NCBI RefSeq assembly: GCF_030253575.1
Contig: NC_080568.1
Location: forward strand, 30,035,001 to 30,099,000
DNA: 64,000 bases
Source of the DNA: Rhododendron vialii
Lineage: Eukaryota; Streptophyta; Magnoliopsida; Ericales; Ericaceae
Direction: 5' to 3'
The position numbers were made by a program, and so were the translations under genes. Below are positions 4,378-49,193 of the stretch, piece after piece (position 1 is the stretch's first letter; the number at the start of each line of letters is the position of its first letter). The notes beneath the pieces were generated by a model. It had not been told where the DNA came from. It searched no databases and worked only from the letters and a program-made list of their open reading frames with translations.

Positions 4378-4925
4378 TAAGCCTAGTTACCCCAAAAAAA
4401 AAAAAAAAACTTTTTTTTTCGTTCTTATCCATTTTTTTTTACATTTGATAGTTTTTATCAAACTTTTGTCAATTATTGTAACGCCCCGAGCAGACCACTG
4501 GCCCAGTTGTAGACTTCCGATGTGGGACGGGGTGTTACAATCTCCCCAACTTTATAGCCTCGCGCCCTCGCGAGATGTTGAGCACTATAATCCAACAACC
4601 AAATCAAACCAAACTCCATGGGCCCACACGGTCGTGTACATGGATGGTTTTGATACCACCTGTAACGCCTCGAGCAGACCACTGGCCCAGTACTCTGATT
4701 TTGATTCACAGGCCACACCACATGACCCAAAAGCTTAAGCACAAGGTATTAGTAGTAGCCCACAAGGTTTGTTATATGCCCAAGATCATCCATGTAGACT
4801 TCCGATGTGGGACGGGGTGTTACAATTATTAATTCGTTTCAGCGAGATAAATTGACAGAACGAATCAATAATCCATAAAAATTTAACGGAATTAGACTAA
4901 AATTTAAATGAGGACAAAAACTTTG
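4378..4925. other. AT-rich small transposon-like region hosting the TRIM; ELP3 upstream flank
   Basis: On either side of the TRIM the sequence reads ATCAAACTTTTGTCAATTATT and AATTCGTTTCAGCGAGAT, words also found in the TIR element near 30.6-30.95 kb. I infer an older MITE of the same group that was later split by the TRIM. Between 4029 and 4378 lies the ELP3 promoter region; no clear TATA box was found. Confidence 0.4.
4477..4824 (-). mobile_element. TRIM retrotransposon with a shortened 3' LTR
   Basis: A terminal-repeat retrotransposon in miniature, read on the minus strand. The 5' LTR is 4661-4824 (164 bp, TGTAAC...GTTACA) and is followed within two bases by TGGTATCAAAAC, a near match to the initiator-tRNA-Met primer binding site. 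The 121-bp interior encodes nothing and ends in the purine tract TTGGGGAGAT directly before the 3' LTR (4477-4539). That LTR is only 63 bp: it keeps both ends of the 164-bp LTR but lacks the middle. The 5-bp direct repeat ATTAT flanks the element at 4472-4476 and 4825-4829. Having no genes, it would need proteins from another LTR element. It sits about 450 bp upstream of the ELP3 start codon, inside an older AT-rich element. Confidence 0.88.
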
Positions 4926-5263
4926 GTCATGACTCAACTACATGCAGTTCTTAAAACTTTGTAGTTCCTCCTCTGAGCAGAGCATTATAGTTATTGTTTT
5001 CATTTTCTTCTTTTGTTACGTATATTTCGGAAAGGAAACAATGAAAAATTGAAACGCTCGTTGCTTCCATATAGCGGAAACTGTTTTTGAAAATTTGATA
5101 ACATATTTTCTTTGTTTCCTGAAAAGTGTGTAGTTTTCAAAAGGTTTTTCCAAATACAGTTTTCAGAAACTGCTAGCCAAATCTGTTTTCATTCCACAGT
5201 CAGGTCCTGGCCTACTGTTTTTTTATTCAAGTTGAAAAACTTTTCTACCTGAAGAGCAACAGA

Positions 5264-24480: not shown

Positions 24481-24749
24481 TCAACCATCAAATCATCTGG
24501 GTCGGTTTAAAATTTCTAATTAAGGATAATAAATAAAGATTTTCGAATATAGAACTAGATTACCTAATCGCCATTCAATTTGGATTTGAACCGTGAGATT
24601 TTTCTAATCCCTTAACTTGATTTCTACTCCTATTTTCCTAATCCACCAGTATACCTAAATCGCCCCTTAATTTGGATTTGGACCGTGAGAAACTCATACA
24701 TACATATCTTCTGGCTATCAACAATCACTCAACTCGCAAATTGCTATTC

Positions 24750-25230
24750 CCCCCCCCCCCCCCCCCCCGGACACCCCACCCCCCGGCCCCACACCAAAAT
24801 TACCTCCTTGCCCTTACCCTTTTCCTTTTTGTTTTCTCTTTTTTTTACCCGGCCCCCCCCCCAGCATTCCGTTTCTGTTTTCCTTTTTTTTTAAACCCGG
24901 CTGTTTTCGTTTTTTTTTTACCCGGGCCCCCCCCAGCATTCCGTTTCTGTTTTCCTTTTTTTTTAAACCCGGCCGTTTTCTTTTTTTTTTTACCCGCCCC
25001 CCCCCCCCCCCCAAACATTTCCTTTCTGTTTTTCTTTTTTTTAAAATCCGGCCGTTTTCTTTTTTTTTTAACCGGCCCCGGCCCCCCAGCCTTCCCTTTT
25101 TGTTTTTACCCGGCCCCCCAGCCTTCTCTTTTTGTTTTTTTTTTTTTTTATCAAACTCCAGCCTTTTCTTAAAACCCAGATTATCCCCCGGCCCCCCACC
25201 CAAAAAACATCCGGCCCCCCCTCCCTTCTT
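24750..25230. repeat. C-rich degenerate tandem array in the left end of the MULE
   Basis: Long C and T homopolymers alternate in roughly 60-80-bp units carrying AGCATTCCGTTTCTG or decayed forms (near 24863, 24945, 25012, 25090, 25120). Strand asymmetry is extreme: C-rich here, G-rich at the right end. Homopolymer lengths may be unreliable in assembly. Confidence 0.75.
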
Positions 25231-25652
25231 AAAACACCTTCACCTTTTAAATTTTATTTTTATTTAATAAATTTTATCGTATTTATTTAATTTCTATAAA
25301 TACACCGGGTAAAAAATCATGTTTTTTTGATAATTTTATTTGAAATGTTTATAATGAATTTTTTGCTCTAAGACTTTTCAACAAACACCCTAAAACTCAT
25401 TATTTAGTTTCAAGACTCTCTTAGGGTGTTCATTGAAAGGCTTTGGAGGCAAAAATTTATTACGACCATTTAGGATGAAATGATCAGAAAAATAACATCT
25501 TTGCACCAGTTCAAACAGATTGAAAGTTGAAACATTTATTTTTGTAACTATATTTTTATTAGACTTAAACCTAGAATTAGATTTCAACCATAGAGCAAAT
25601 ATGGGGGGGGGGGGCCGGCCATATGGAGTGAGGAGAGAGGTCCTCATTTTCC

Positions 25653-25660
25653 TATAAATA
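25653..25660 (+). promoter_or_regulatory. TATA box of the transposase gene
   Basis: CCTATAAATAGAAC lies about 755 bp upstream of the transposase ATG, followed by a CT-rich leader (from about 25685) that may contain a 5' UTR intron. Confidence 0.55.
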
Positions 25661-26413
25661 GAACTCTTTGTGAAACCATTCAATTCACACCTTGAATCTC
25701 TCCAACTTGTCTCTCTAGAAATTTTGTGTTTGCTCTTTGTTCTTACTTTGTTCTTGGTATTATTCAGTTTCTTCTTGAGTTCTTCAAGAAACTCAACCCA
25801 AGGCCGCCACTAAACCACCACCCGATCAGCTTCTCGATCCAAAAAATTTAGTAGTTTAGTCAATATTTATTTTCGAGAGGAAAAAAAAGTATTTTGTTTT
25901 CTCTTTCGAAGCTAACGTAAGCTTACCGTAAGAAGTCAGTTCGTTCGATAGCCACATTCATCTTCTGTAAGCTACCGTAACCTTCTATTATATTTTATTT
26001 TTGTGTTTAAAAATGCATATTAAGTTAAAATACTAAAGATAGCTAGCAAACTTATTCTACTAAAATTACTGGTCTAAAGCATAAGTGGTTTCCACTCCAA
26101 AGGTGTCCGTCCATGTGACACTATGCTTTATGATCGTTTTTACAATTGTGGAGTAACCCGAGGCTAACACCCTCGAAAGTTTGTCAACAAGTCTGGCTTC
26201 GTACCGACTAAGGAAGGAATGGTGATTCTAATTGGATTCGTCCGACCATCCGACCTGGGACTTTCCTGGTTATTTCTATGTCAAACATAATCTACAAAAA
26301 TTAGAATAATGATTTTCGGTGAAAATTTGGCATGGTTACTTAGGCTTTCCTCACAAACTGTGTATTTGTCAAATTTTTTAGGAACGCCGCAGCGAAAAAT
26401 TCGGGAAGGAACA

Positions 26414-29261
26414 ATGGATGACTACAACTTTTCAATTTCAGATAGTTGGTCATTTGAGAATGATATTCGTAGTGAGGAGAGTGTCTCCCACAATAGTCGC
26501 GATTATACACAAGAATTTACCACCGACCAGGTTAGTTTTCACTGTTATTGTTTTGCATATTCGTTATTTATGTTAAGACTGGTTAATGTTGTATTTATAC
26601 ATTTTTTTTTATATAGATTTTTGAAAGTAGAGAAGATATGTTAGCTTGGGCACGGAGCGTTGGTCTAAAATATGGTATTGTGGTGGTTATTTTAAATTCT
26701 GCTAAGTTAAAAGGCGGCAAATTGCCGAAGTGCATTCTTGGTTGCGAAAGAGGAGGAAAGTACGAACCGCCACGGTATTTGGTTGAAGGGCAATCCTTGC
26801 AAAGAAATACTGGGACTAGAAAATGCGATTGCCCATTTCAACTGCGAGGTATACCACAACATCCATACGGTATCAGGTGGGGTTTAGAGGTTATTAGTGG
26901 TGTCCATAACCATGAAATAGCAAAACATATTGAGGGCCACGAGTACCCGTCAAGGCTAAAACCAATAGAGAAACAATTTGTGGTCGACATGGCCAACAGT
27001 ACTGCGCCTCGTGAGATTCTTAATATTTTGAAGCAAAAAGACCCGTCAAACACTACGGGAATCAAGAGCATTTATAACACCATTTTTTCAAACAAAGCAG
27101 CCAAACTGGACGGTTTAACTCCTATTCAGTATGTCATACGTCAATTACTTAAGGAACATTACCTCCATCAATTTCTTACAAATCCGGATACTAACGAAAT
27201 CACAGATATTATTTGGGTTCATCCTATGAGTCTAGAGCTATCTGTCAACTTTCCGTCTGTACTGATCATTGACGCCACGTACAAGACCAATGAGTATCGA
27301 AAACCACTATTGGAGGTTGTGGGTATCACATCCACATGGCGAACTTACTCGCTTATGTTCGCTTATCTTAGTAATGAGAGAGAAGAGACATTGACATGGG
27401 CATTGGATAACTTAAAAAACTGGATGCTTCAAAAGGGGGCGTCGATGCCATTGGTGTTTGTTTCAGATCGGGATTTAGCGCTTATGAACGCCATTGAAAC
27501 ATGTTTCCCTACGGCACGTCACATCTTGTGTATTTGGCACATAAATCAGTGCGTCATGAAGAACTGCAGCCGTGTGCTTGGTTCGGAATGGAAGCGCTTC
27601 GTCAAGTCATGGCACTCGCTTATCAATTCATCTACACCTTCGTCTTTCGAACATAAGTGGCAAGCCATGTGCGACGATTTTCGCCAGTTTCCGTATGTCA
27701 TAACTTACCTGTGGCAAACATGGTTAAGGTCGTACAAAGAGCGGTTTGTTTCAGCATGGACAGATACATGTATGCACCTCGGAAGCAATTCAAGTCAAAG
27801 GTAAAATCGCTTTTTCACTTTCCTATTAAAATTTTGTGTATTTCTCTACTATACTAAGAAATACTTTTTGATACTTTCCTATTTAAACACAGTGCATTAT
27901 TCTATTACAGGGCAGAGTCTGCACATGCGAGGCTAAAGCTATATTTAGGGGATACCATGTCATCACTACAAACATCTTTTGATAAAATACATAAGATGTT
28001 GAAAAATCAGTTCGGGAAAATTAAGAAGTCGTTCGAGAAATCATTGAACATTCCACGCCACAAACAATTACGTGACGACATTTTTGATCAGGTAAGGTGT
28101 CGTATTTCATTAGAGGCAATGGAGTTCATACATGATCAGCTAGAAACCGCTTTAGAAGTATCCCCCCACATTGTTGGCTATTGCAACTGTACGATCAAAA
28201 TCACACACGGATTGCCATGCATGCACGATCTTGCATATTATCGTTCCATTTCCACTCCAATTCCGCTATGGAGTATCCACGCTCATTGGACTAGGTTGTC
28301 TATGCACGCAACCGAGTTTAATGAGGAGGGAGCACGATCTGACAGGACATCTCAGGTCGTTGAGATATTAGATGGGATGGATCCACCTATGCGAGAGCAT
28401 ATCATAGACAGGATTATCGATATGGCAGATCCATCTCGTAGCACAATTCGACCTCCATCGTACAACACAGAACATAGAGGTCGACCTACAGGTAGAGATG
28501 AGCAAAGTACACGTCGCATACCTTCTTTCTCAGAAGCATCCACTTCAGGATCAAGGACTGCAACATCGCGAGTGAGAGGGAGAGGGAGACGTGGGAGGGG
28601 TTCGGGGGTTCGCAACACTCAATTTATAGTTCCATCCATCATTGATCCCTACATTCAACGATTACCTCAGGCTTATCAGCGTTATATTTCCCACACTGTT
28701 GACGTGCTTGGTGATGGTCATTGTGGATTCAGGGCGATAGTTGCACTAATCGGGTATAGTGAAAATGATTGGAGTCGAGTACGAGAGGAGCTTATTGAAG
28801 AGATTCAACAAAATTATTATCTATACACCGAGATTTATCCAGTAAATGATTGGGCAAAGCATCTACTAATTTTACTAAATTGGTTCGAGCCTACGGCACC
28901 AAAGGATCACTGGATGGAGGCTATGACTTTGGGAGTTGTCATCGCAACAAGGTACAACCTAGTACTGCATACATTTGATGAGGATGTTTACGGTTGTTTT
29001 ACTCATTTGCCATTGAGGTCCCCTCCAGTTTCAGTCGAATACCGCCGGGAAATTGCTATTGCCCGTGTTAACAACGATCACTTCGTGCAAATTTTCTTAG
29101 AACCTAATTACCCTGTACCACCCATCCCAATATGGTGGGAGGAGCATTCATCGGATGAAGCTAAAGGATGGGCTGCCAGTTATGAAACACGTTTGCTATT
29201 GTGGTACGAAGTAATGGGTATAAGCATGCCGGGAGCAGCATTTGGAGGAGATATTGATTAA
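26414..29261 (+). CDS. MULE transposase fused to an OTU-type cysteine protease, 883 aa
   Basis: Exons 26414-26530, 26617-27800 and 27911-29261 (GT-AG, 2652 nt, 883 aa). Order of parts: a FAR1/WRKY-GCM1-like DNA-binding region, residues about 40-140, with Cys pairs (CILGC, CDC) and a final H-N-H; MULE DDE transposase, about 170-440, with D258 in LIIDATYKTN, D323 in FVSDRDLALMNAI and E436 in AESAHARLK; SWIM finger C525-x-C527...C537-x-H539 (YCNCTIKITHGLPCMH); an Arg/Gly-rich linker around 650-670 (RGRGRRGRG); and an OTU fold, about 695-830, with D702 and C705 in VLGDGHCGFRAI and H824 in NNDHFVQIF. The triads look complete. The transposase would cut and rejoin the element's ends in the nucleus; the OTU part is expected to cleave ubiquitin or ubiquitin-like links, target unknown. 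No stop or frameshift was found. It is the only gene in the element. Confidence 0.9.
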
Positions 29262-29834
29262 AATTTGTGTTTTTATGTATTTTCATGTTTTGACAATATG
29301 TACTCAATTATAATAAAATGAAATTTTATTTCAATTTATTATTGTTCATTACAAGTTATTTTTATTATTCATTGTTAAGACTAATTAACTAATTAAAATA
29401 ATATAAATTTATTAAGCATAAAGTCAATTTTAATTGAAAATAGAATTTGAGTTAACCAAAAAAAAAATAAAGAAGGGAGGTAAAGGGGAAAAGAAACAAA
29501 TAAAGAAAATAGAAAAGATTATTAAAATAATAAAAAAAAAGTTCAAAGTAGAAGGAATCAAAAGAAAATAAAGAGAAAAAAACGAAAAAAAAATTCTACC
29601 AGAAAAAAAAACAAAAGAAAATAAAGAAGAAAAAAGAAGAAAAAAAAAAAGTAAATGAAATGTGGGGGAAGCAGGAGAACGGGAGGGGGAGGGGGAGAAA
29701 AAAGAAAGAAAAAAAAAAGTAAAAGGAAAGAGAGGAGAGCAGGAGAACGGGAGGGGGGGGGAGGGGTAATATGGGAAATGGGGTGTGGGGCCGGGGGGGG
29801 TGGGGTGTCAGGGGGGGGGGGGGAAAAGCAGCCC
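29262..29834. other. MULE 3' region: poly-A-signal zone, A-rich stretch and G-rich right end
   Basis: AATAAAATG at about 29311 could serve as a polyadenylation signal. From 29455 the plus strand is a purine tract (AAAGAAAATAAAGAA words), with AGCAGGAGAACGGGAGGGGG present twice (about 29669 and 29737). It ends in G runs that mirror the left terminus. Confidence 0.7.
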
Positions 29835-29845
29835 TCACTCAACTC

Positions 29846-42296: not shown

Positions 42297-45200
42297 ATGG
42301 CCATAACCGGAAGTGTTTCTAATGGTGACAAGGATAAAATCCTTGAAGTTGAGGAGGACTGTTTCCCTCCCAATTTCAGGGAATATATGTTAAAGGAACT
42401 CAGTTGGACGCGATTTAAAGAGGATGGCTGTGGGAATTCGTTGTTTGGATGGGTTTTTTGGAGCCAACAAGACCACGAGACCAACTCTCTCGGCAAGTGA
42501 CCCCTCATTTTGTGTGTGTATATATAAATAAAAGTTCACTTCCTAGGAGGGATTTCTCGTTATGCTTATATGCGGACCTCTCATTTCTGGATCATATTTT
42601 GATGATCCAAACCGTTCAACTTGTTTAAAACATATCTTTAAGAGTACTCACTAGTAAGCAGCTCAAAAGAATATTGATAGTACTTAATCCAAACAGTTTT
42701 TCATAAAACAGTTCCTGTCAAACTTTATGAAAAACCATTTGGATCAAGCATTTTTTGGTCATTTTTTGGTCATATTTTGAGCTTATTTCTCGCAATTTCC
42801 CTTAAAAATATGTTTTAAACAAGTTGAACGATTTGAATCATCAAAATATGACCTGGAAATAGGAGGTCCACATCGTAGACAAAATGAGGGGAAAGTCCAC
42901 TTTGACCCCCTTGTAATTTGGGTCATGCATGGATACACTCTATGATTCAAAAGTGTGCACATAACACCATGTGGTTTGTGAAATGTGCAAACACACCCTC
43001 TGCCGTCATGTTTTCCATCCACATTAATATACATAGCATTAAAAGTCCGATATGTCCTCATCTTCTCTGTTGATTCTTATTCTTCCTTGAATCTAACCAA
43101 TCCATCCTTTGTACAAAAAATTGGATCTGAACCGTTGATATTGTAGAGTTTGACGAGTATTGCATCCATACCAAAATTTAAGTCGATCAAAAAATGAAAT
43201 CTCATGGTCGGATTGAATTTAATAGGAAGTAAATTTTTAAATTTAAATCTACTATTCATTTTAACAAGAATTAGATCACTGAGTCATTGATGTCTGATCA
43301 AGTTGATTTTTTTACAAAGATGCTCTATTCTGTGACTAATACATTAAAATTCAAAATTTTGTTAATATAAATGGAAAACATGACAATAGGGGTTGTGTAT
43401 GCAAATTTCATAAACCATAAGGCGTTATGTGCACACTTTTGAACCATAAATGGTGTATTCGCACATGGCCCAAATTACAAGGAGTCAAAATGGACTTTTC
43501 CCTGGATATTTATATGTTCATATATGTGTATAAATGAATCTCTTTTTCTTGGCTCAATGTCAATTTTCAGTTGCAGATAATTTTGTGGACTTCAGTCCCG
43601 ACGTTTGTGCGTGTCCGAAAGTCAGAGAAAATATCAGACTTGCTCTCCAAAAAATGATATTGTACCCAAGACTTAATGTATCACTAGTTCAATTTTGGGC
43701 ATCCACAAAAACATTGGAGGGGCGGACTTTGCTTACAACTCAAAACCAACCTTTTGCTCTTGGTAACACATATACCACGTTTGAGAGACAGTGGCTTTGT
43801 GAGTATAGGATGATGATCGGCAGGGAGTATAAGTTCTACGCAGATGCCGAGAGTGGAGAGGAAGAACTTGGGCTTCCTGGCCGTGTGTTCCTCCATAAAT
43901 TCCCCGAATCCACTTCAGATGTGAAGCATTACACTCTTAAAGAGTATCCACAACTCGACCTTGCTTTACGTTGTTTCATTAGAGGATCTTGGGCTATGCC
44001 AGTGTTCGAACACTCCTCCAAAACCTGTGTTGGGGTGCTTGAGATAGTTTCTCTCTCTTACACGCCTTCATTTTGGCATGACAAGTCTTTCCTCGGTAAC
44101 CTGTATGGTATTTTTCAGGTATGTCAATACTCTGGCCATTTTTGAATACTAGCTAGTTACTAACTTTCATTACTACTCCATTGGTGCTTTGGACCACATG
44201 AGTATACTTAAAGCAAGCTGATGCTGGATTTTTCAGAAGGGAAGGAAGAAAAGTAAAAACAAGGATAAAATGAATAATCGCTCACCACCCATTGTTAAAA
44301 CCGAAGGGATACAGATTTCACCACCCAAGTTAGAGACCCAATGGGATACAGATTGACACCACCTGAGGATTTAACGAGGGATACAGGGCTGGAAACCGCT
44401 CACCACTCTAAGGAATTCACCTAAGAGATACAGAAACGGAGAACTCATCACCTATCGGAATCTACTGAAGGATAAGAGTTATAAGAAGAAATATCTTCTC
44501 ACAAGCCAAAGGCTATTTTAATTCAACACTCAAAACTATGAAGATGACCCGGCTTTCTCATCAAAGGATGAAAGGATAGGACTTGTTGGAACATCCCTCC
44601 AAACATAGGAAACATACGCTTAGATTTCCAAGACACAAATTGAAAAGAGACTTGACCATAGACTAATTGAAAGATGTGTTTGACTCTTGAAACTTAAAAA
44701 ACTCTTAAAAACTTAAAAAGACTCTTCGATCGACTCAAAAAGACACTAAAAACTGTGGGGGAAACCCCTCGTTTCTTGTAGCACCATTATATTTCTGCAT
44801 CACAAGCTACATGCCTGGTCAAATTACAGGATCAGGAAAGTTTAAAAAATGACATTTTGAAGTCAATGATTTTGCAACAATCCCCTCGTTAGTCTAATTA
44901 TGGCCACAACATCACCTATATATGAGCATGAACCTATGTTTTTCCTTTCATGAGGAAGTAGTTCGCCACACATTCAATTGCAATGCAACATTGGTAGAGA
45001 AGTGGATAACAGATTGATTGCAAATTTATAGGAGTATAAGCATTTAAACGAGATGCAACAGTCCTGAGCCTTAATGAGCTGTCTTGATGCGAAGACATTC
45101 CGGCAAAGAGAAAAAAAACCTATCCAAATAAAGGACATCGTTGGACCTGGAGGGGTTTGGTTCCCCTTGGCAACAGGCAGGCCTCTTGTCAAAAAAATTG

Positions 45201-45440
45201 CCCCTACTTGATGAGTTGTTAAAGCAGTGTTCTAAAAATCAGCCTAGGCAGACCACCAACGCCTAGATTTTAGGGTCTAGGCGGTTACTAGGCGTTTTTA
45301 CATTAGTCATCGTTTAGTTGCTGAGTAACTGGCTAGGCGGCGAGTAGTCAGTGGGGTATAATTTTCAATTGTTTTCAAGTATTTTTGGGGTTAAATGCAT
45401 ACTAGTAAAAAACACATCAAGTTAAGTGTTATTGTTAACA

Positions 45441-45514
<74 letters not shown>

Positions 45515-48038
45515 TTTACATAACAAGCCTCAATTGGCTAACAAAATATATATACACATAATACATAACAAATACATGTTTAGTGTTACTTTTAGTTATT
45601 AACTTATTATGTAGTCTTAATTGGCTCAGACATTCAGTCATGTGAAACACCTTTTGAGTTGAACACTCAGAAATCAAATACTATTGTACTGGTTAAACAA
45701 CACGTACGCAACTTAAGAGTCTCCCTTGAATTTCAGTTAAGTTACCGAACTCTTATTTGTTTGAAGCTTGTGTTCATTCGAAGAAGATATTAATTTGTTT
45801 GAATGCTGGCCCCCAAAATACCAAAGACAGTTCTTCCCAGGCTGCAGGAATTTCTGTGAGCCGAGTGTTGTTTCTTATTTGGACGTACATTTTCCTTACT
45901 TCGCTTTAATCTGACCATAACTGTATATATTGACTATGTTTCTCAAACTCCTGCAGGAGTTTGGTATGCGATGCTTTGATGGATATAAACACTGTGAAAT
46001 GAGAGTGAGTGGCAAACCCTTATGCTTAGTTAAACTTGGATTTCAGTTTTCTTCCATAGATATTGTACTTGTTATATTCTCAGAAGTATCTGACGTGACA
46101 ATACTTCCGAAACAGTACATGGACGAGAATAAAGCTCTTGCAGCTGCCTTCAAGGAACTCAAGATGGTTTTGGGATCTGTATGTAAAATTCATAAGCTAC
46201 CTCTGGCTATGACATGGGTCCCTTGCAGTGCCTGCGGCTATTTAGTGGAAGGCCAACACCTATCTAAGGGCAAAAAAATTTTTGGGGACGGTTATGACAA
46301 CCTTTTTTTTGAGTTCAGAACAATCCTAAAAAGCTGTCATTTAAGAAAGGGAGAGGTTGCTGGGAGGGTACTCTCATTTCCTAACTTGTTATACTGCTCA
46401 GACGTACAACTATTAAGCATAGCTGAGTACCCCTTGGTACCCTATGCACGACGGTACCAATTAACTGGTTGGTTCACGATATGCTTGCAGAGCAGTTTTA
46501 CTGGGAATGAAGTTTATGTACTGGAGTTCTTTTTGCCCACGAGCAGCAAAGATGATGAGAACATTCTGGCCAGATTGAGCTTGATATTGGCAACGATGGA
46601 GGAAAGTTTCAAAACTTTTAAGCTTGCTTCTGGCCAAGATTTGGGGGACATGTTGACTGTTGAAGTTATCGATTTTCTGAATGGCCAGAAAAGTCACTCC
46701 ATTCAAATGATCCAAGCTACTAGATTGACTCCTTGTCTTGAACTCTTAAAGGATGGAGGAGTGAGATTACAGATAGGTCAACTGGATCAGCCAACAATGG
46801 ATGCCAAAAATAGTGGAATGGATGTCGTTAGTGAAGATCACAACTATTTTTTACCTAGTCTTGAAGCCTCGCAGAATGGAGAATTGACGACAGAACTAGA
46901 CTCAACTGATCAGACATCAATGGATCCTTTAAACAAAGGAAAGAATGTCACCAGTGCAGAGCAAAACATCATTCTGGTTGCTAGTTCAGAAGAAGGCAAA
47001 AGAATCCAAGCTACTAGATTTACTCCTAGTCTTGAGCTCTTGAAGGATGAAGAAGAGATATTGCAGATAGGTCAACTGGATCAGCCGACATTGGATGCCA
47101 GAAATAGTGGAATGGATGTCGTTAGTGAAGAACAAAACTACATTTTACCTGGTCCTGAAGCCTTGCAAAATGGAGAATGGACGACACAACTAGATTCAAC
47201 TGATCAGCCATCAATGTATCCTTTAAACAATGGAAAGAATGTTGTCACTGCACAACAAAACATCATTTTGGTTGCCAGTTCACAAGAAGGCAAAAGAAAG
47301 ATGCAAGAAAAGAAACATAAAAAATCTGGAGTTAGAATTGAAGTTTCTTTAGAGGAGATCCATAGATGTTCGAAAATGAGGCGTGAAGATGCTGCAGAGG
47401 AACTCAAAGGTAAAGGGTACACTCCTAGAATTTAAAATCTGAGTTTGCTTCTTGTCATGATTGTAACTTTTGTGGTCTCGTTTTATATAGAAATTGGTGG
47501 GCTTTTGGCAGCATAGAGCAAAGGTGGTTGTCTTATCTGAGTTGTTTGTTTTGCAGTTAGCATATCTACGTTGAAGCGGGTCTGTAGGGATTATGGCATC
47601 CATCGGTGGCCACCTCGCGACATAAAAAAGGCCCGTCCCATTCGGCCCTCCCCTGTTGAGAACCAGGAACAATCCCCACAACTTAATTTTAATTTGCCTT
47701 TGAATCAAGCCTCAGATAGTGTTGCTCACATAAAGCCAGCATTGCAAGATGGGGATATGGTGACAATTAGGGCGAAATATGAAAATAACACGATAAAGTT
47801 TCGGCTGTCTTTGTCGTCTAGATTAGTAGAGCTGCAACAAGAAGTGGCTAAAAGGTTGAACGTGGAGCCAGGAACTTACTATGTCAAGTACAAAGATGAG
47901 GATAATGAGTTGATTTTGATAGCTTGTGATGAGGACTTGCTAGAGTGTATCCATGCTTCTAGATCGCTGGGCAACACTTCGATTGTGGTTCTGGTTGAGC
48001 TAAAACAGCCAATGACCAACTCGAATCCTGCTAATTAA
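42297..48038 (+). CDS. NLP: NIN-like protein (RWP-RK/PB1 transcription factor), divergent
   Basis: NLPs are nitrate-responsive nuclear transcription factors. Exons: 42297-42492, 43571-44118, 45957-47409, 47557-48038; 2679 nt, 892 aa. Intron 1 needs a GC-AG donor (CTCG|GCAAGT) to keep frame; an alternative acceptor at 43577 also keeps frame. The N-terminal half carries the NLP block ELGLPGRVF, then PLAMTWVPC and ITG-like LTGWFTICLQSSFTGNEVYVLEFFLP text (residues about 100-480). A 98-residue unit is then tandemly duplicated (46711-47004 and 47005-47298). The RWP-RK region follows at about 700-760, with STLKRVCRDYGIHRW intact but RWPPRD in place of RWPxRK. PB1 at about 796-880 keeps the lysine and the DEDNE-type acidic patch. 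The linker between RWP-RK and PB1 is much shorter than in AtNLP7. The first exon is the least certain part. Confidence 0.87.
42572..42872. mobile_element. MITE in NLP intron 1
   Basis: TGCGGACCTC and GGATCATATTTTGATGATCC at the left pair with ATCATCAAAATATGACC and GGAGGTCCA at the right. Inner AACTTGTTTAAAACATAT also pairs. 301 bp, non-coding. Confidence 0.75.
42888..43503. mobile_element. Long-TIR element (MULE-like) in NLP intron 1
   Basis: GGGGAAAGTCCACTTTGACC at the left is mirrored by GGAGTCAAAATGGACTTTTC at the right. TIRs stay alignable for about 130 bp through GTGTGCACATAACACCATG and CATGTTTTCCAT. No convincing 9-bp TSD. It ends about 70 bp before NLP exon 2. Confidence 0.75.
44119..45956. 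other. NLP intron 2 with degenerate GGGATACAG repeats
   Basis: Around 44270-44500 five loose copies of a unit with (G/A)GGGATACAG and TCACCAC occur. A GCCTAGGCGG-type repeat lies at 45240-45340. No ORF of note. Confidence 0.5.
45441..45511. repeat. Compound (TA)n(TG)n microsatellite in NLP intron 2
   Basis: About 11 TA units followed by about 25 TG units. Prone to length variation and Z-DNA. Confidence 0.95.
46711..47298 (+). repeat. In-frame 294-bp tandem duplication inside NLP exon 3
   Basis: Two units of exactly 98 codons, each beginning IQATR.TP.LELLKD and ending NIILVASS.EGKR. They differ at scattered positions, so the duplication is not brand new, and the reading frame has been kept. 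Confidence 0.95.
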
Positions 48039-49193
48039 GCATATATCTATATGGTTTGTAAGCATCTGTTGTTAATGCTGGCCTAAAGATATGCACTTGA
48101 TGTAGTTTTTTTCCTTTTTCTTTTAGTTATTCGACTAGCCATTATAGTGTGAGGAAGTTACGCTCTCTTTTTCCAGCCACTCCTATTCTTGCCTATGTTG
48201 TTTTATCATGCCTAGTCTTCATTTGATCACAAAACCATGTCAAGAGCTAGATCACATTTGTATGGAAGAAAAATTGATAAACGGAAGAAATCTCGGCCTG
48301 AAACCTCGAAGAGGTTGGTACAGAGGTATGCAACCACAAACCCTCTGGTTTTCAGCTCATCATTGCATAGTCTCATTTTTGTTGAGCAAAAACTAACGAA
48401 GGCTCTAATGTTGAGAAACAGTAGAATGGAGGATTATGGTTCCTAGTTCAGCAGATCCAAGCAGATCAGGAATTCCCAGCCGATGTCGGAGCTAGGAGTA
48501 CTTTTTCGTTTCACTTGAACTCTTATTAGTTTTACTTATTTTTACGGATTATTAGTTCGCTTTGATGAGAGGCATTTAAAAAATTGAAAAATCATGGCAA
48601 TTTTTAAAAAAGCTCATTGACAAAAATAATCTAACATTAGTGAACTTTAAATCTTCTAATGGAGTATAATTTTGTAGTTTTTAGATTCCTCCTATTGATA
48701 GAAGCGTTTTCATTTGTTGGTACCTTTTGGGAATTCTCGCATTTGTGACTTGTCATAGTTTGATTTTATCTTTGGAAAAATTTCAAATACCCCCCTAACT
48801 TTGAAAAAATGAATAGGAACATGTAAAGATTATCTCCTTCTTTTTGTACTTTCTCTTTGGAAAAATTCTCGCACTTGTGACTTGTCATAGTTCGAGTTTT
48901 GAGCTGTTTACGAGAGGCTTCGTTCATTTGTAGCCTTACTTTAGATGCATGCAATTTGACTCCATAAATGCAAAAACACGAAATGGTCCGTAAATAAACT
49001 CAAAAGTCTTGTAATCCCTGTTTTTTTCCATTGATTGGTCTATGCTTTCGTTTTCTCTCACTTAAATTTTCAGTTTCAGAAAAATCAAAATGTTATTCCC
49101 GATTCAATTGGTGCCCTGAATCCAATTGGATATGATAAAAACATAGGAAAATATTGGTATCGACTTTGCCAAATACTAATAACTTTTGCTTCA
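48039..49193. other. NLP 3' flank, no supported gene
   Basis: The first part is presumably the NLP 3' UTR. Short ORFs lack features. TCGCA(T/C)TTGTGACTTGTCATAGTT occurs twice (near 48736 and 48868). Confidence 0.4.

Follow-up and report, generated by a model that had tools for sequence, protein, structure and literature searches.

Whether a mobile element can carry a ubiquitin-removing protease as a standing part of its transposase, or whether such a domain is a recently captured scrap of host sequence, is the question raised by a 64,000-nt window of the Rhododendron vialii genome (NC_080568.1, contig 12 of the genome searched, 30035001-30099000; "the window" is the whole stretch of DNA that we analysed). 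At positions 24736-29836 of this window lies an element that the original prediction described as an intact Mutator-like element (MULE) whose single protein joins a DDE transposase to an ovarian tumour (OTU)-like domain. That description was borne out by a stop-free frame, a match to the MULE domain PF10551, a predicted OTU fold and the presence of recent copies. On the basis of sequence comparison and structure prediction, we consider it probable (about 0.75, a figure that covers the identity and history of the element and not the cis-protecting role proposed below) that this is an autonomous-looking, recently mobile MULE, in which the OTU domain is old and was co-inherited within a plant transposase lineage.

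The gene, on the forward strand like all coding features given here, comprises three exons (26414-26530, 26617-27800 and 27911-29261) that yield 883 codons free of stops, and the predicted uninterrupted three-exon frame therefore stood; both exon junctions and the N-terminal exon agree with predicted homologous proteins (P0008, P0010; Actinidia, Rhodiola), and the closest protein match was R. vialii LOC131328499 (99%). Exon 1 encodes residues 1-39, an N-terminus that is the same in homologs P0005, P0008 and P0010. Exon 2 encodes the N-terminal DNA-binding region and the first part of the DDE domain, while exon 3 holds the end of the transposase, a linker, the OTU domain and the stop codon. The profile search proposed in the original prediction matched PF10551 to residues 254-350 (E 2.4e-27), and the three DDE residues that it had named were all present (D258, 27271-27273; D323, 27466-27468; E436, 27915-27917). 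The N-terminal region gave a profile match to AFT2 (E 1e-5), and neither an integrase family nor Ulp1 appeared among the Pfam matches of the 883-aa protein at E up to 1. A SWIM domain had also been predicted, and the corresponding CxC-x10-CxH motif is found at residues 525-539 (28182-28226), but PF04434 (SWIM) had no match in the protein at E up to 1 and matched 1 of 47 aligned proteins; the assignment is thus one by motif.

We then delimited the element. The letters TCACTCAACTC occur at 24725-24735 and again at 29835-29845, as the predicted 11-bp direct repeats. When right ends were read in near-identical copies, without imposing any end pattern, all eight with a readable right end (the window, L035 and L037-L042) had GCAGCCC-TC, after which their flanks differed, so that TC is the element's own right end and the target-site duplication is therefore 9 bp long (ACTCAACTC, 24727-24735 on the left and 29837-29845 on the right) rather than 11; the TC at 24725-24726, before the left duplication, is a chance match to that end. 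Several more diverged copies (L043, L045, L050, L052 and L054) have other right ends. Both end anchors, the right one being a typed pattern, were found in 12 of the 14 copies tabulated: five carried an exact 9-bp repeat with flanks in register (the window, L037, L038, L040 and L046), five an 8-bp repeat or a 9-bp repeat one base off (L035, L039, L044, L047 and L049), and two no flanking repeat (L041 and L042).

Consistently with the prediction of inverted C/G-rich ends, local alignment of the two 140-bp ends scored 68, a value reached by none of 1000 dinucleotide shuffles (maximum 56); after homopolymers were collapsed the score was 36, which 1 of 1000 shuffles reached. The outermost 4-6 bases of the two ends pair poorly. 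The left inverted repeat (GCAAATTGCTATTCCCC...CCGGCCCCACACC; 24736-24795, forward strand) is a left end common to dispersed copies, and the right one (29782-29836, reverse strand) terminates in ...GCAGCCCTC. Subterminal C/T-rich direct repeats (family D2) are present in three copies spaced 72-79 bp apart at 24848-25085 on the forward strand. The element combines a MULE-type DDE transposase, terminal inverted repeats and a 9-bp duplication, inside the 8-11 bp that a table of PMC6446971 gives for MULEs (here and below, PMC numbers stand for extracts of the papers concerned), features by which a MULE is recognised.

The search for full copies and empty sites proposed in the original prediction recovered dispersed copies with common ends. 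Exon 3 had at least 95 matches in the genome, at least nine of which (window included) were 99-100% identical and stop-free, both counts being lower bounds (549 candidates, 94 scored). Among 21 sequences examined, eight, the window included, kept the frame at a coding-sequence identity of at least 99.8% with no indel in the gene. Three more diverged copies (L043, L044 and L053) were stop-free over the aligned coding sequence and had one gene indel each, L046 was free of stops over the 1858 of 2652 bases that could be aligned, eight others contained stops, and one (L036) was skipped for its Ns. L036 (contig 6, 40462198-40469844) is itself a near-identical copy with 1654 Ns, which include its 3' end. 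Two copies represent a second family, whose OTU part has 64% identity; they differ from each other at 2 of 1350 bases, and both are stop-free in the stretch read. On contig 5 (about 1757960-1759888; L057), a young internal-deletion derivative keeps element positions 25-1549 and 4684-5099 at about 98-99% identity and is without the entire coding region, its first 24 bases lying outside the match; this is as expected of a non-autonomous copy, the alternative being deletion after insertion.

Downstream of the transposase part, a flexible Arg/Gly/Ser-rich linker (about residues 621-675; 28470-28634), whose predicted local distance difference test score, averaged or read by blocks, is about 28-48 in each of the two models, precedes an OTU-fold domain (about residues 685-868; 28662-29213) that is indicated by predicted structure and by conservation. 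We scored the three residues named in the original prediction in 99 near-full-length domains from 98 proteins (window included) among 199, shorter matches being dropped: the aspartate corresponding to D702 (28713-28715) was found in 94, the catalytic cysteine C705 (28722-28724) in 94 and the catalytic histidine H824 (29079-29081) in 96, with all three kept together in 87 of the 99 and, at an 80% redundancy cut, in 44 of 51. The OTU fold of the predicted models and the catalytic Cys and His with a D-G-x-C box are the features expected of an OTU. In other OTUs, an Asp/Asn that orients the catalytic His sits just after it and a separate Asp stabilises the oxyanion (PMC3950621); D702 looks, by our own matching, like the latter. 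The three residues and the predicted fold were as proposed, but D702 would be an oxyanion-type Asp and not the triad acid. In three relatives (P0007, P0093 and P0163), the catalytic Cys is replaced by Tyr, though their domains align near full length.

To place the fusion in time, we explored its distribution. The OTU part retrieved 25 proteins and a Camellia relative used as query retrieved 150, the best 120 of which were tabulated; relatives occur in Rhododendron, Vaccinium, Actinidia, Camellia, Rhodiola, Citrus, Melia, Dipteronia, Rosaceae, legumes, Lamiales, Asteraceae, Celastraceae and Cinnamomum, among others. The transposase part retrieved 95 proteins, with an OTU match in 63, as counted with a hidden Markov model built from 46 alignment rows, some of them among the 95, and with partial matches included. 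In 37 proteins with both parts, OTU and transposase distances were correlated (r 0.88; 0/2000 permutations), with the caveat that both parts also track plant relationships and that Cetraspora, Tanacetum, P0106 and Salvia/Perilla are placed differently. The original prediction had asked whether the OTU part ever shares a transcript with the transposase; evidence that it does comes from one relative only, P0041, an open reading frame of an assembled transcript ("TRINITY ... ORF type:complet") with FAR1, MULE and OTU in one frame. A FAR1 domain was present in 9 of the 47 aligned proteins. Database names of relatives include FAR1-related and PKS-NRPS hybrid synthetase, and P0096 is named OTU domain-containing. 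PF02338 (OTU) matched four places in the 13-contig, 532,647,506-base genome, none of them in the window.

Some relatives have unusual hosts or architectures. P0197, from the Glomeromycota fungus Cetraspora pellucida (which is represented among the 63 with an OTU match), is a MULE-OTU protein with a D-G-N-C box and the His, and P0194 is another in which F replaces the Asp; both may be of old origin or may reflect horizontal transfer. Three predicted Rosaceae proteins (P0142, P0147 and P0150, in clusters of 19-37 members) join MULE, SET (PF00856), PF17907 and OTU, a transposase with methyltransferase-type and OTU domains both.

Selection on the two parts was compared at two divergences. At the deeper one, against the 64% family, purifying selection is indicated by the sequences, with omega 0.37 (0.23-0.59) in the part of the transposase encoded by exon 3; the OTU domain had 0.59 (0.38-0.92), the higher of the two in 4646 of 5000 resamples. 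Nine comparisons of the window copy with copies 2-4% apart, six of which include stop-bearing copies and which are not mutually independent, gave an omega of 0.56-1.17 for the OTU domain and 0.23-0.49 for the transposase, and the nonsynonymous-to-synonymous (N:S) contrast reached p < 0.05 in three of the nine. So the OTU domain appears constrained over longer time and fast-changing over shorter; for the shallow pattern, relaxed constraint and adaptive change are indistinguishable in these data.

Several observations weigh against our reading of the element. In the other half of the genome search, a query of joined flanks revealed no empty site in the assembly: each half matched the locus in the window itself, and the one further match covered 81 bases at 77%. 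The PF02338 match expected by the original prediction was found neither in the element protein (E up to 1) nor in any of the 47 aligned proteins (E up to 0.01); Pfam gave no OTU match on exon 3 alone and, on the C-terminal 213 aa, otubain only (E 0.18). The otubain family PF10275 matched 2 of the 47 (best E 9.3e-4), and a single-sequence search of the PDB gave VCPIP1 at E 0.8 and one unrelated chain. By Pfam alone, the lack of a significant OTU match would speak for rejecting the domain, as the original prediction had itself proposed, but this null is overridden by the comparison of predicted structures; the OTU identity rests on structure prediction together with conservation. Moreover, there is no Asp/Asn at either place after H824, where F825 and V826 stand at H+1 and H+2 (F/Y/W and V/I, each in 50 of 51 non-redundant relatives), and the acid expected of an OTU is missing or elsewhere; to judge by these residues, the domain may work as a Cys-His dyad or have weak activity. 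Some OTUs draw this acid from elsewhere. No OTU match was found in 32 of the 95 transposase relatives, some being short or partial models and others long, so that the domain is frequent in these sequences without being present in all of them. Finally, the comparison of the window copy with L043 gave omega 1.08 for the OTU domain and 0.23 for the transposase, and changes common to at least two of 17 copies were 22 N/7 S in the OTU domain and 30.5 N/28.5 S in the transposase (Fisher p 0.038, uncorrected), those found in single copies being alike (42 N/15 S and 87 N/38 S; p 0.60).

What the domain would do for the element can be proposed as follows. The product of the single gene would be a MULE transposase to whose C-terminus a cysteine-protease domain of the OTU family is flexibly tethered; this domain would remove ubiquitin from the transposase that carries it, in cis, and would also act on the other proteins of its transposase-DNA complex, which, once deubiquitinated, would thereby be spared from the proteasome. 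Judging from sequence and predicted structure, the domain quite probably has ubiquitin-isopeptidase activity; that it protects the transposase and the bound complex in cis is a tentative proposal, to which we give somewhat less than even weight. A more elaborate scenario, which we hold to be doubtful, is that the transposases of this plant MULE lineage have as a constant component an OTU deubiquitinase that works, though non-canonical, and whose surface coevolves in an arms race against those ubiquitin ligases of the host that target the transposase, the catalytic residues being held and the rest evolving at omega ~1 between successive subfamilies.

Other roles for the same domain were weighed against protection in cis. 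It might act in trans, with chromatin or silencing factors such as ubiquitinated histones as its targets, and keep copies of the element expressed, as could be suggested by VANDAL elements whose KIU (Ulp1-bearing) genes hypomethylate related elements (PMC13317346) and by the effect of another deubiquitinase, UBP26, on transposon silencing in Arabidopsis (PMC3950621). We regard this as unlikely, since silencing depends on UBP26 and is not opposed by it (PMC3950621), and since what the Ulp1 domain itself does is called unknown (PMC13317346). An equally improbable reading is that of a pseudo-protease, in which the OTU fold would be kept to bind ubiquitin or a partner with no cleavage; the residues found after the His and an OTU omega above that of the transposase would suit it, but the near-invariance of C705 and H824 goes beyond the expected need of binding alone. 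A repair function, in which the domain would edit DNA-repair ubiquitin signals at excision or insertion sites, might also be considered, with little likelihood in our view; Bao and colleagues put forward such a role for Ginger1, with regard to transposase-fused OTU and Ulp1 domains (PMC2836005, Discussion).

Two further explanations concern the origin of the sequence rather than its role. Host fragments are often captured by MULEs, according to literature abstracts, and the OTU domain could be a recent capture of the Pack-MULE type, functionless for the element. This is highly improbable given the catalytic conservation and the deeper omega below 1, and we rejected it on the frequency of the domain among transposase relatives and the congruent distances of the two parts, with no tree-based search for a closer host OTU gene. 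Relatives named FAR1-RELATED SEQUENCE in databases might instead suggest a domesticated FAR1-like host gene and no transposon at all, a scarcely credible reading, which was rejected because near-identical copies are scattered over several chromosomes and have common ends, whereas their flanking repeats of 8-9 bp differ.

The same OTU domain is also predicted on proteins of other kinds, labelled AP2/ERF or MYB (P0030, P0059 and P0064 from Melia, P0088 from Rubus). The window itself contains an NLP (RWP-RK) gene (43615-48140, forward strand) with a stop after its PB1-like part, and no OTU was found downstream of it. NLP relatives with the MULE-type OTU, mostly C-terminal, were predicted in Vaccinium (P0098) and Actinidia (P0046, P0049-P0051, P0053, P0055, P0057, P0070, P0083 and P0102), and the NLP-OTU junction of P0098 resembles the MULE linker; host reuse of the domain and gene-model fusion are both possible.

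Among known systems, the animal Ginger1 transposases bear an OTU or Ulp1 domain at their C-terminus and, like the Rhododendron element, combine a protease and a transposase in one protein, whereas their DDE domain is of the Gypsy-integrase type and that of the Rhododendron element of the MULE type (PMC2836005). The original prediction had cited Kaonashi-type elements as carriers of a ULP1-like protease. These, and the Ulp1 MULEs of melon, rice and grapevine, are likewise plant MULEs with a ubiquitin-like-protein protease domain, but Kaonashi (KIU) elements are non-TIR MULEs, that is, of the type without terminal inverted repeats (TIRs), and their Ulp1 domain lies separately in one of three genes, while the Rhododendron element has TIRs and an OTU in one fused frame (PMC13317346); Ginger1 is therefore the closer parallel (PMC2836005). 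MuDR-6_HM, of a cnidarian MULE clade, is likened by description only: one table entry for this animal clade gives "Ovarian Tumour Gene" among other motifs/ORFs (PMC6446971). FAR1/FHY3 and the FRS family have a MULE-derived transposase core (literature abstracts) and are domesticated regulators, in contrast to the Rhododendron element with its ends and recent copies. The OTU domains of VCPIP1, OTUD3, OTUD5/DUBA and A20 are 14-18% identical to that of the element, which differs in having no Asp/Asn after the His.

An OTU at the C-terminus of Ginger1 (PMC2836005), an OTU entry for a cnidarian MULE (PMC6446971) and Ulp1 in plant MULEs (PMC13317346) are thus already known from these extracts. For plant MULE transposases with an OTU, we found no paper in open-licence PubMed Central text among the matches listed, going by their titles, the openings of their abstracts and counts of terms; two of these matches, PMC9993606 and PMC6207730, do contain the terms, and term look-ups for OTU found none in the extracts of PMC8599713 and PMC13359780. 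The Pfam OTU model leaves every aligned protein of the MULE-OTU lineage unlabelled, which is a blind spot of annotation. Ubiquitin-type proteases have joined unrelated transposons, namely Ginger1, some Helitrons and the Ulp1 MULEs, and a 2026 review describes what Ulp1 does in plant MULEs as unknown (PMC13317346). In the lineage described here, the putative protease is fused to the transposase, appears old and occurs in elements that were copied recently and whose frames are undamaged, and a test by the change of a single residue is therefore possible. The MULE-OTU pairing of many flowering plants may thus serve as a test case for ubiquitin removal in the movement and survival of transposons.

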